From assembly GCA_003246575.1 (NCBI GenBank), contig QJZZ01000003.1, positions 208,644-272,643 of the forward strand: a DNA stretch of 64,000 nt, read 5' to 3'. Below, one piece after another: positions 47,912 to 50,420 of the stretch (positions are counted from its first letter, which is position 1; each line of letters begins with the position of its first letter). The stretch comes from Candidatus Saccharimonadota bacterium (GTDB lineage Bacteria; Patescibacteriota; Saccharimonadia; Saccharimonadales; Saccharimonadaceae). The translations under genes and the position numbers were made by a program. The notes below the pieces were generated by a model. That model ran no database searches and was not told the origin of the DNA. It was given only the letters and a program-made list of their open reading frames with translations.

Positions 47912-48809
47912 TCCGGAACCAACTGTTTTCTTCGGGAGTGGACCGGTTGCCGCACGATCTCTTGAGCTTCTCCTCGAACACACCCCTGTCGAAGTTGTTA
48001 TCACCAAGCCACGTCCACCTCATCACAAAGGTGACGTGCCCGTGCTCGCGCTTGCCGAAGCACGCGGGTTACGCGTCATCACTGCCGCCAACAAAGCCGA
48101 ACTCAACCAGCGCATAGCAGAAGAATCGTTTCAGAGCCGATATGCAGTACTGATCGACTTTGGCATCATCGTCAGCCAAGCGGTGATTGATACGTTCGAG
48201 CTCGGTATTATCAATAGCCACTTTTCACTTCTTCCTCATCTCCGCGGCGCCGACCCAATCACTTGGTCAATCGCCAACGGTGACGAGACTACCGGTGTTA
48301 GCTTGATGTGCGTTGATGAAGGACTCGATACCGGCACACTCATCACCTCTCGTACACTCCATCTCGAACCAACCGACACAACCATCAGTTTGACCGAAAA
48401 ACTCATCGACCTGAGCGACGCACTTATCCAAGAATACGTCCCTCGCTACCTCGCAGGCGATATCACCCCGCACAACCAACCTCATCCAGATCGCGCGACG
48501 TATTCACGCAAACTCACGAAGGACGATGGCCGCATCGACTGGAACGACTCAGCTGTTTCAATCGAGCGTAAAATCCGCGCCTTTATCGAATGGCCGCAAT
48601 CACGTGCCCGTTTCGCCGGACTCGACGTCATCATCACCCGCGCACATGTCGTGCCTGGAGCGGGTACGCCGAGCACCTATCACCTCGAAGGCAATGAGTT
48701 TATCGTCTACACCGGAGATCAGGCTCTATCGATCGACGCACTCAAACCTGCGGGCAAAAAAGAAATGCCCATACAGGCATTTCTTGCGGGATATCGTAGT
48801 AAACTTTAG
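47892..48809 (+). CDS. fmt: Methionyl-tRNA formyltransferase
   Basis: Adds formyl to Met-tRNA for initiation. From ATG 47892 the 305 residues begin MTSGKINPEPTVFFGSGPVA. The catalytic region is LGIINSHFSLLPHLRGADPITWSIANGDETTGVSLM, with Asn, His and Asp in the expected places. The C-terminal OB-fold domain (RIDWNDSAVSIERKIRAF) binds tRNA. Frames reaching further upstream are def shadows. Confidence 0.94.
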   Translation: MTSGKINPEPTVFFGSGPVAARSLELLLEHTPVEVVITKPRPPHHKGDVPVLALAEARGLRVITAANKAELNQRIAEESFQSRYAVLIDFGIIVSQAVIDTFELGIINSHFSLLPHLRGADPITWSIANGDETTGVSLMCVDEGLDTGTLITSRTLHLEPTDTTISLTEKLIDLSDALIQEYVPRYLAGDITPHNQPHPDRATYSRKLTKDDGRIDWNDSAVSIERKIRAFIEWPQSRARFAGLDVIITRAHVVPGAGTPSTYHLEGNEFIVYTGDQALSIDALKPAGKKEMPIQAFLAGYRSKL

Positions 48810-49243
48810 GCGGCTGGCTCTTCGAGTCCACCAAGGATAGCATCGCGGTTCTTGACCGTTTCGTCCTTGAGTTCTTGCATGGTAGCCGCAACAACATCAC
48901 GGTAGTCAGGACGGTTGAGTCCGAGCCACTTGAGGCTTGCGTATTCTGATTTGACGACCAATTCAGGTACATCAGCTGGCGCACCGGTCTTGAGCTGTTG
49001 CCAGACAGCATCTTCTTGATAGTTCGGGATGTTATCGGCAATCCACTTGTTGACCTTGGCCTCATCGCGATCGATGAAACTTTCAAACTCATCAAGTTGA
49101 GCGTCAGATAGGCCTTCAGATAGCTTTGTACCGACACGCAGCTCGAGCTGCTCGCGGAAATAATCCAAAAATGCCTGTTTTTGGTCTTCCGGCAATTCGC
49201 CGAGACCTACTTCGTCAAGAAATTTCTCATCAAGTTGAAACAT
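48806..49243 (-). CDS. Helical acidic protein of unknown function (145 aa)
   Basis: Not firmly recognised. The protein is acidic and helical (MFQLDEKFLDEVGLGELPED, DYFREQLELRVGTKLSEGLSDAQLDEFESF) without membrane segments or cysteines. The first 75 residues resemble the small protein at 55.2 kb in pattern (ELPEDQKQ..., LRxxMxxxLxxGLxDxQ), of the type sometimes called DUF5663. It has a TGC-TATAAT promoter at 49277-49282 and the ribosome site AAAGAGG. It overlaps the fmt stop tail to tail. Confidence 0.75.
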   Translation of the reverse strand: MFQLDEKFLDEVGLGELPEDQKQAFLDYFREQLELRVGTKLSEGLSDAQLDEFESFIDRDEAKVNKWIADNIPNYQEDAVWQQLKTGAPADVPELVVKSEYASLKWLGLNRPDYRDVVAATMQELKDETVKNRDAILGGLEEPAA

Positions 49244-49276: not shown

Positions 49277-49282
49277 ATTATA
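49277..49282 (-). promoter_or_regulatory. Extended -10 box of the 145-aa gene
   Basis: TGC-TATAAT on the minus strand. The region of its -35 (about 49300) coincides with the left 13-bp inverted repeat of the GC-rich cassette. Confidence 0.6.
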
Positions 49283-49293
49283 GCATTGAAAAT

Positions 49294-49306
49294 CGCAAGA
49301 GCGTAG
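49294..49306 (+). repeat. Left 13-bp terminal inverted repeat of the GC-rich cassette
   Basis: CGCAAGAGCGTAG; the exact reverse complement lies at 49940-49952. Confidence 0.8.
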
Positions 49307-49313
49307 TACTGCT

Positions 49314-49350
49314 TCGCTGTCCGGCCCCAAAAGGAGGGGCCGGACAGCGA
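49314..49350. repeat. Perfect GC-rich hairpin after the cassette gene
   Basis: A 15-bp perfect inverted repeat (TCGCTGTCCGGCCCC / GGGGCCGGACAGCGA) with a 7-base loop. There is no T run in the expected place, so it is not an ordinary intrinsic terminator, although it may still stop or protect the transcript. Confidence 0.85.
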
Positions 49351-49369
49351 TAAGCATCAGACTTGGTCG

Positions 49370-49906
49370 TCAGAAGATGACGACCAGAAGCCCGATGGCA
49401 GCGAACGCCGCGGCCGCGGCCGCTGAGCTGAAGGCCCAGCGACGACCACGGCCATTGACTAGGCCGATGGTCTGAGCGACTGCCCAGACCACCATTGCCA
49501 GCCAGAACAGCCGATGCGCCAGGGCCACGTAGCCGTGAGCACCAATGGCATAGGCCACCACTGCAACGACGGCAAGCACGAACGCGGTCCCGAAGATAGC
49601 GGTGGGCGTGTAGAGCCCCCGACCATCTTTGAACCCGTTGAGCCAGGCCTCCGCACGTCCCTTGAGGGTGCGGTCGTAACGGGACTGCCAGAAAGCATCC
49701 CGCCCCCGATCGCGTGCCTCATTGTCGTCGGAGGCAGCGGCCAGCGCCGCCTCCAGAGCCGCGGGGACATCACCCCGGGTTGTGGTAGTGCGGAGACTGT
49801 CCTCGAAGACAGCCTTCCCGTGGAGCCAAGCCCCACCGTCCGCGGCTGTGGCAGTCATTGCTGCCTCGATTGGGACCTGATAACGGTCCGGGATCCGGAA
49901 ATTCAT
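49370..49906 (-). CDS. GC-rich gene for a membrane protein with a DGGxWL/FW domain (178 aa)
   Basis: Not recognised. Residues 1-95 form a soluble helical region with ATAADGGAWLHGKAVFEDSL, ALEAALAAASDD and RDAFWQSRYD. Three hydrophobic segments follow (AIFGTAFVLAVVAVVAYAIGA, LFWLAMVVWAVAQTIGLV and AAFAAIGLLVVIF). The same soluble pattern occurs in the protein at 61.0-61.8 kb. The base composition stands out: 49381-49440 is about three quarters G+C, against roughly half around it. The ribosome site GAAGGGCAG precedes ATG 49906. The gene has its own promoter, a structured leader and flanking inverted repeats. Confidence 0.8.
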   Translation of the reverse strand: MNFRIPDRYQVPIEAAMTATAADGGAWLHGKAVFEDSLRTTTTRGDVPAALEAALAAASDDNEARDRGRDAFWQSRYDRTLKGRAEAWLNGFKDGRGLYTPTAIFGTAFVLAVVAVVAYAIGAHGYVALAHRLFWLAMVVWAVAQTIGLVNGRGRRWAFSSAAAAAAFAAIGLLVVIF

Positions 49907-49937
49907 GTTACTGCCCTTCGTTTGGTCGGAGTGACGA

Positions 49938-49970
49938 AGCTACGCTCTTGCGCTGCGCAAGCGTGTAGCT
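49938..49970. repeat. Leader hairpin 1 of the cassette gene
   Basis: AGCTAC / GTAGCT outer arms and CTTGCGC / GCGCAAG inner arms. It includes the right 13-bp terminal repeat. Confidence 0.7.
49940..49952 (-). repeat. Right 13-bp terminal inverted repeat of the GC-rich cassette
   Basis: CTACGCTCTTGCG on the plus strand, exactly complementary to 49294-49306. No target duplication is visible outside the pair. Confidence 0.8.
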
Positions 49971-50018
49971 GGCGCACACCATTTGTATTGGTGCACAATA
50001 CAAAAAGTGTGCGCCAGC
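49968..50018. repeat. Leader hairpin 2 of the cassette gene
   Basis: A 51-base nested palindrome: outer arms GCTGGCGCACAC / GTGTGCGCCAGC (12 bp, perfect), inner arms TTTGTATTG / CAATACAAA (9 bp, perfect). It lies in the predicted 5' leader of the cassette gene. Confidence 0.85.
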
Positions 50019-50055
50019 CAGAAATAGCTCACGCAACAATACCTATGATGAAAAG

Positions 50056-50077
50056 TTCATTACGGTATCGTAATGAA
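50056..50077. promoter_or_regulatory. Palindromic operator-like site
   Basis: A perfect 9-bp inverted repeat (TTCATTACG / CGTAATGAA) with a 4-base centre, starting 5 bases after the -10 box and covering the expected transcription start near 50075. Confidence 0.7.
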
Positions 50078-50081
50078 GTAT

Positions 50082-50110
50082 ATTATAGCAAAAAATGTAT
50101 TTTTTGTCAA
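50082..50110 (-). promoter_or_regulatory. Consensus promoter of the GC-rich cassette gene
   Basis: TTGACA (50105-50110), 17-base spacer ending TTTGC, TATAAT (50082-50087). Both boxes are exact consensus with an extended -10, predicting strong transcription of a leader of about 170 bases. Confidence 0.85.
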
Positions 50111-50117
50111 TATATGA

Positions 50118-50420
50118 TTATGCCTGCGCCGACGTATCATCCGGAGTATTTTGGTCCTCGATGGTTTCCGGGCTAAGCTTTTCATTGAGAGCAAATTCAA
50201 CTTCATCGAGCAATTCAAGGTATCGGCTCAAGCGGTCGTCCGTATTCTCAATCGAAGATATCAGCTCGAAAGCTCGCCGATACAAGCCAGCGTCCTGTTG
50301 CACCTGCGCAAGTCGCATGACGAGCTGTAGTCTCTCTTCATTTGACAAGCCCTCAGCCTCAATCATAGGCTGCACTGCACGCAAAAGGTCCTCGCGTAGC
50401 TGAGTCAATTCATCTTTCAT
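50118..50420 (-). CDS. Helical protein of unknown function (100 aa)
   Basis: Not recognised. The residues form amphipathic helices resembling a helical-repeat (TPR-like) hairpin set (LSNEERLQLVMRLAQVQQDAGLYRRAFELIS). The tail NTPDDTSAQA is shared in similar form with the 74-aa protein at 42.4 kb. It follows the 1572-residue gene by 69 bases with a G-rich ribosome site (GGGGGG), so it is probably the last gene of that operon. Confidence 0.75.
   Translation of the reverse strand: MKDELTQLREDLLRAVQPMIEAEGLSNEERLQLVMRLAQVQQDAGLYRRAFELISSIENTDDRLSRYLELLDEVEFALNEKLSPETIEDQNTPDDTSAQA

Follow-up and report, generated by a model that had tools for sequence, protein, structure and literature searches.

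A solitary GC-rich gene of a fast-diverging Saccharibacteria family, likely inserted as a complete transcription unit

The window analysed here, a stretch of 64,000 nucleotides from a Saccharibacteria genome, holds a GC-rich gene of 178 amino acids (the A gene) that is enclosed by short inverted repeats and hairpins and carries its own promoter. The locus raises the question of how this gene came to stand between its two neighbours. An earlier note on the sequence saw in it a small cargo cassette moved by an outside enzyme, or a non-autonomous element. We instead favour, with a probability of about two in three, a solitary member of a fast-diverging Saccharibacteria family that likely arrived here by insertion of an intact transcription unit and so came to lie between genes found side by side in relatives. 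The features of the locus are as follows, in coordinates of the window.

48806..49243, minus strand: left neighbour, a DUF5663 protein
49277..49285, minus strand: extended -10 of the left gene, TGCTATAAT, which is one copy of a 9-bp direct repeat
49294..49306, plus strand: left copy of the 13-bp inverted repeat, at chance level, over the -35 position of the left gene
49314..49350, minus strand: 3' hairpin, a perfect 15-bp stem with a 7-nt loop and no T-run behind, 19 nt past the stop
49370..49906, minus strand: the 178-aa A gene (ORF, composition, hydropathy and profile match of relatives)
49938..49970, minus strand: leader hairpin with 16-bp arms, one of which contains the right 13-mer copy (49940-49952)
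49968..50018, minus strand: larger leader hairpin, 23-bp arms that are 91% complementary, 5-nt loop
50056..50077, minus strand: inverted repeat, arms of 9 bp, on or shortly past the putative transcription start as placed relative to the -10 box
50082..50110, minus strand: consensus promoter TTGACA-17-TATAAT, -35 at 50110-50105 and -10 at 50087-50082
50090-50082, minus strand: extended -10 of the A gene, TGCTATAAT
50118..50420, minus strand: right neighbour, 100 aa
60993..61790, minus strand: 265-aa gene with a two-repeat domain and without hydrophobic segments, 11 kb from the A gene

The exact 13-bp inverted repeats, the perfect 15-bp hairpin at one end, the leader hairpin with its further inverted repeat and the consensus promoter were all found where the earlier note had placed them. 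The left repeat, said to fall in the -35 region of the neighbouring gene, does cover that position, but no recognisable -35 is present there (TACGCT, 2 of 6 matches). The promoter pattern TTGACA/TATAAT with a spacing of 16-18 bp occurs at six sites in the readable genome, and a ribosome-binding-like AAGGG stands ahead of the ATG of the A gene.

The composition of the A gene departs from that of the window, as had been claimed. Its G+C content is 65.4% (GC3 72.5%), whereas 56 non-overlapping ORFs of the window average 51.3% (sd 2.6); that set was picked by length and includes an overlapping 220-aa ORF instead of the A gene. The 500-bp segment of the A gene, with a G+C of 0.662, is the GC-richest in the genome. 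The three codon positions have G+C contents of 0.70, 0.54 and 0.73, as in a coding frame. Upstream, the G+C is 0.57 at this locus and at most 0.549 (L023) at the loci of 28 relatives, a 29th value (L032, 0.173) having been set aside as a probable artefact; the upstream G+C alone therefore does not set the locus far apart. Elsewhere in the genome, another GC-rich gene (59%; C1:22578-23975, minus strand) has a start that seems to resemble that of a subtilisin-type protease.

Direct searches placed the A protein nowhere. Among 5.8 billion proteins, in a search that detects only sequences sharing 5-residue words, the whole protein (E 1e-3) and residues 1-102 (E 10) each returned only the protein itself. 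There was no family above the cut-off in Pfam/NCBIfam and none in PHROGs or PADLOC, and no relative was found in genome and viral contigs by peptide patterns or in plasmids by tblastn. A plasmid or phage origin was rejected, since these sources gave nothing for the A gene and the other matches covered at most 7% of the query, with an E value of 0.02 at best. The literature, covered at the level of titles and the opening lines of abstracts with few subscription papers among them, yielded no description of the family.

Profiles gave a different picture. The A protein weakly matches the 265-aa gene of the window (E 0.005) and a 190-aa ORF in G009, a genome of another genus (E 0.014). These three sequences were combined into a three-row domain alignment, and its profile, searched in 394 family genomes, found relatives in G244 (E 1.2e-11) and G067 (E 3.3e-7). 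Because this search was seeded by the window's own proteins, the test was repeated in the reverse direction, using a profile of G244, G067, G009, G215 and G017 from which the window proteins were left out; G215 and G017 were included for their position before gene B, described below. Against the 6735 ORFs of the window's own genome, this profile, of which three of the five sequences had originally been found through the A gene, ranked the A gene first (E 2.1e-10, 39.8 bits) and the 265-aa gene second (E 8.4e-5), the next match having an E value of 0.36. The best of 2000 shuffled controls reached 14.3 bits. As single sequences, G244, G067 and G009 scored 30.3, 20.6 and 15.4 bits against the A gene, and none of 2000 shuffles reached the real score in any case (best 14.4, 12.8 and 11.1 bits); G215 and G017 as single queries did not find the A gene. 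The homology is limited to the N-terminal ~80 residues. Judged by these profile matches, the A gene belongs, through its N-terminal domain, to a fast-diverging gene family of other Saccharibacteria genera. The 265-aa gene shares the two-repeat domain but differs from the A gene in having no hydrophobic segments and a G+C of 52.8%; its own search of the 5.8 billion proteins returned only itself.

The A protein contains two helical repeats of about 37 residues each (residues 10-45 and 48-83), followed by three hydrophobic segments in the hydropathy profile (103-121, 126-144 and 159-177). Among the relatives, two such segments are present in G244 and G009 and none in G067. A single-sequence AlphaFold2 model gave five helices with a mean pLDDT of 66.9 and a pTM of 0.27, which is too poor for a fold search. 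The protein is predicted to be an inner-membrane protein, with the two-repeat helical domain in the cytoplasm and three membrane helices; the cytoplasmic N-terminus is suggested by Arg/Lys-rich stretches before segment 1 and between segments 2 and 3.

In G009, G067 and G244, the relative of the A gene is followed after 36 to 66 bp by a GC-rich gene, B, and then by the gene of a surface-type protein. The B protein, hydrophobic in one or more stretches at its N-terminus and rich in Pro at its C-terminus, is probably exported. The B proteins of G009 and G067 are clear relatives, and that of G244 is weakly similar (E 0.006). In G009 and G244 the surface protein has a DUF11 match (in G009 just under the cut-off) together with a weak LPXTG anchor match below the cut-off. 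On the other side of the module lie pyruvate kinase and other glycolysis genes in G009 and G067, while the contig of G244 ends there. Gene B was matched in 38 of 388 family genomes. We viewed 31 module loci, 30 from the B search (39 rows, nine of them without a locus) and that of G244; two loci (G125 and G350) to which no B ORF could be assigned were dropped, leaving 29 counted modules, 13 of them outside genus g2 (in four genera) and 16 within it. All 13 modules outside g2 have a B gene of 60-68% G+C with 3' flanks of 43-48%, and seven of them have a surface-protein motif in the 3' flank; in g2, the G+C of B is 46-56%. The A genes of relatives are GC-rich as well (57% in G244, 61% in G009 and 64% in G067). 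GC-richness is a property of the module in four genera and therefore does not date the A gene of the window as recent.

The A position itself is varied, being occupied by repeat-domain proteins in some modules and by proteins with coiled coils, Pro-rich stretches and membrane segments in others; G150, G232 and G226 are among the genomes whose protein at this position is built differently from that of the A gene. Between G232 and G226, two species of the same genus (loci L158 and L159), the module ends and flanks align at 76-88% identity, including the 3' end of B, whereas no nucleotide match was seen for the last part of A or for most of B's first two thirds. This mosaic pattern suggests recombination at a hypervariable locus. 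The 37-nt terminal hairpin is identical in the two loci.

Hairpins of the same kind close the modules of relatives. Of the 13 modules outside g2, 11 have a GC-rich hairpin without a T-run behind their last gene (G017 and G244 lack it); these 11 hairpins have a G+C of 57-82% and start within 25 nt of the stop. In g2, a 3' hairpin was found in 2 of 16 modules. Since such a hairpin stands behind the last gene of the relatives' modules as it does behind the A gene, the hairpins resemble the ends of transcripts more than those of a transposon. By comparison, a GC-rich, T-run-less hairpin stands behind 11 of the 767 ORFs considered in the window's own genome. This rare type is also seen directly behind genes at C4:81003-81040, C1:368181-368216 and C1:424929-424958, the last a perfect hairpin about 0.9 kb downstream of a Y1 transposase gene.

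The unit of the window resembles the modules of G009, G067 and also G244 in the two-repeat helical N-terminal domain and in being GC-rich, and those of G009 and G067 in the T-run-less hairpin after the last gene. It differs from them in that the A gene stands alone, at another locus, with no B or surface-protein gene behind it and with a different leader, without the conserved leader motif that lies upstream of such modules. No match to gene B was found in the own genome, of which 72,000 bases were masked, and B could lie within these bases. The interval between the relative of the surface protein and pyruvate kinase in the own genome contains no A-B module.

The leader of the A gene folds strongly (z -6.45; none of 200 shuffles was as stable). 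A known RNA family was rejected, as every Rfam match up to E 1 (to models of microRNA, Histone3 and Pxr) fell far short of the gathering score. Many, though not all, of the modules in relatives are preceded by an AT-rich promoter-leader that is conserved and contains TTAACAARTCAGATYATTACAGTG, a motif found in 31 of 151 family genomes and 14 of 61 genera (0 for the reversed-pattern control); sites include L145 17518-17541, L147 17298-17321, L155 371-394 and L158 412-435. In 12 of 15 loci examined, the next ~940 bases after the motif have a G+C of 58-67%. For seven loci bearing the motif, Rfam listed nothing apart from one tRNA elsewhere. The consensus fold of this leader is weak (eight pairs, one with a two-sided change); judged by eye, its outer stem seems to covary. 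The own genome has no match to TTAACAARTCAGATYATTACAGTG at up to two mismatches, the best site being mismatched at 8 of 28 positions, and the gene of the window therefore has a different leader.

Were the block a mobile element of the non-autonomous kind, its ends would be formed by the 13-bp repeats and the hairpins, and a transposase from outside would have moved it here. Inverted repeats do lie near both ends of the GC-rich block, the site is empty in two relatives, and the genome encodes one Y1 transposase (RAYT/IS200-type by its Pfam model; C1:423391-424005, plus strand), on a different contig from the A gene. However, the 13-bp repeat is no more than chance would give: the 859 kb of readable genome contain 17 exact inverted repeats that are at least 13 bp long with arms 300-1500 bp apart, or 1.3 per 64 kb, and three simulated first-order Markov genomes held 11, 18 and 21 such pairs. 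The right 13-mer lies inside a hairpin and is not an end, as hairpin sequence continues to 50018. The earlier note had proposed looking for the repeat and hairpins elsewhere in the genome; inverted repeats of at least this length are present at chance frequency, and no second copy of the element was found. None was seen in 393 other family genomes with at most two candidates scored per genome, the best match being 36 bases (E 7.6e-4). The note had also seen no target duplication. A 9-bp direct repeat, ATTATAGCA, does exist at 49277-49285 and 50082-50090 and could be one, but each copy is at the same time an extended -10 sequence, and counting both strands the genome has 35 occurrences of the 9-mer, so it is weak evidence. 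Mobilisation of the RAYT/REP type was rejected because GTAG-plus-hairpin sites are at chance level, with GTAG beside GC-rich hairpins at five sites, where the 256 tetramers average 2.8 (sd 2.9) and 43 of them, GTAG included, reach at least five. The locus is like MITE-like and REP/RAYT hairpin elements in that a segment of foreign appearance is flanked by short inverted repeats and hairpins, and unlike them in that its repeats are at chance, with no extra copies, no standout target duplication and no matching transposase end. The locus also resembles an integron cassette, in that a hairpin follows a single small gene that fits no known family; this reading was rejected, as the A gene has its own consensus promoter and no flanking attC-type pair of core sites (GTTRRRY/RYYYAAC), the single site being inside the gene at 49637-49643. 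With the 3' hairpins of relatives marking gene ends, the cassette proposed in the earlier note was not supported, and we regard movement by a transposase as improbable.

The insertion we favour was examined through the neighbours. The left neighbour was matched in 55 of 61 genomes searched, the own genome included. A relative of the right neighbour adjoins that of the left neighbour in two genomes only, G017 and G009 (28% and 38% identity), which are of other genera in the same family. Of the 29 loci obtained from relatives through the left gene, 11 were read. The two genes are separated by 39 bp in G017 and by 56 bp in G009, against 874 bp in the window; when the 805 bp between the two TGCTATAAT boxes are subtracted, 69 bp are left in the window. 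These two empty sites are of the kind that the earlier note had suggested seeking and, with the deviating base composition and the other locus of the relatives, support its reading in part. The note had also considered that the gene with its hairpins might be kept in place in distant relatives: a GC-rich gene with a 3' hairpin is indeed found there, but at another locus and with a partner gene. Since every known relative lies at another locus and has its partner B, the case for an insertion depends on the two empty sites, both of them in other genera, and the comparison of neighbours indicates that the A gene was likely inserted whole into a gene pair that is contiguous in relatives.

Three other accounts of the gene were weighed against the same evidence. 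It may be an old resident, inherited vertically and lost by relatives, with the GC-rich codon usage typical of its family; GC-richness is common to the modules of four genera, and the promoter and hairpins are intact. The A gene is absent from both same-genus genomes (88% and 96% complete), where the left gene has different upstream neighbours, so the site is prone to rearrangement and loss in relatives is possible. The absence in these two genomes nevertheless speaks against vertical inheritance, as does the finding that G017 and G009, the only genomes in which the two neighbours were seen side by side, leave no space for the gene there and carry their A genes at another locus; we consider vertical inheritance doubtful, though it deserves to be kept in mind. 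Recent capture from a GC-rich actinobacterial host would account for the G+C of 65% and the outlying composition, but the protein matched only itself among 5.8 billion proteins and nothing in plasmids, and its relatives were found within the same Saccharibacteria family, in which the profile was searched; such a capture is very improbable. Finally, the lack of any family in the Pfam/NCBIfam, PHROGs and PADLOC searches would be expected of a chance ORF within GC-rich non-coding DNA, an idea to which we give almost no credence in view of the homology to ORFs of other genera (E 2e-10), the codon-position G+C and the AAGGG before the ATG.

Based on the insertion reading, we propose the following course of events. 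Transcription would start at the predicted consensus promoter and pass through the strongly folded leader of about 170 nt, the 178-aa protein would be translated from the transcript, and the transcript would end, or be protected, at the 3' hairpin. The A protein may then act at the cell envelope, perhaps touching the host cell; this role is suggested by the company of its relatives, namely the probably exported B protein and the DUF11 surface protein with its anchor-like C-terminus. The unit would have arrived as Saccharibacteria DNA that was taken up and integrated by ordinary recombination rather than by a transposase, and partner B may have been lost or may never have arrived with the A gene. 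Natural transformation is documented for a cultured Saccharibacterium in excerpts of PMC10633639.

More speculatively, Saccharibacteria might carry a hypervariable GC-rich surface module, composed of a conserved leader RNA, an interchangeable A, a recombining B, a terminal hairpin lacking a T-run and an anchored surface protein, that would recognise or protect against particular host cells. The hairpin-bounded unit would then be the currency of exchange between genera, and the unit of the window would have jumped from its home locus to work alone under a strong promoter; we hold this larger picture to be a long shot, yet worth stating. To our knowledge, little is understood of the way in which episymbiotic Saccharibacteria adjust to different hosts. 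Their host binding is likewise described as largely unknown in excerpts of PMC12206443. A gene whose only match in 5.8 billion proteins is itself can still be placed by means of profiles and synteny. Fast-diverging membrane proteins and probably exported proteins encoded beside a surface protein, by genes of distinct composition that are richer in G+C than their flanks in four genera, are concrete candidates for diversification driven by hosts or phages, and such genes could be deleted in a transformable Saccharibacterium (excerpts of PMC10633639).
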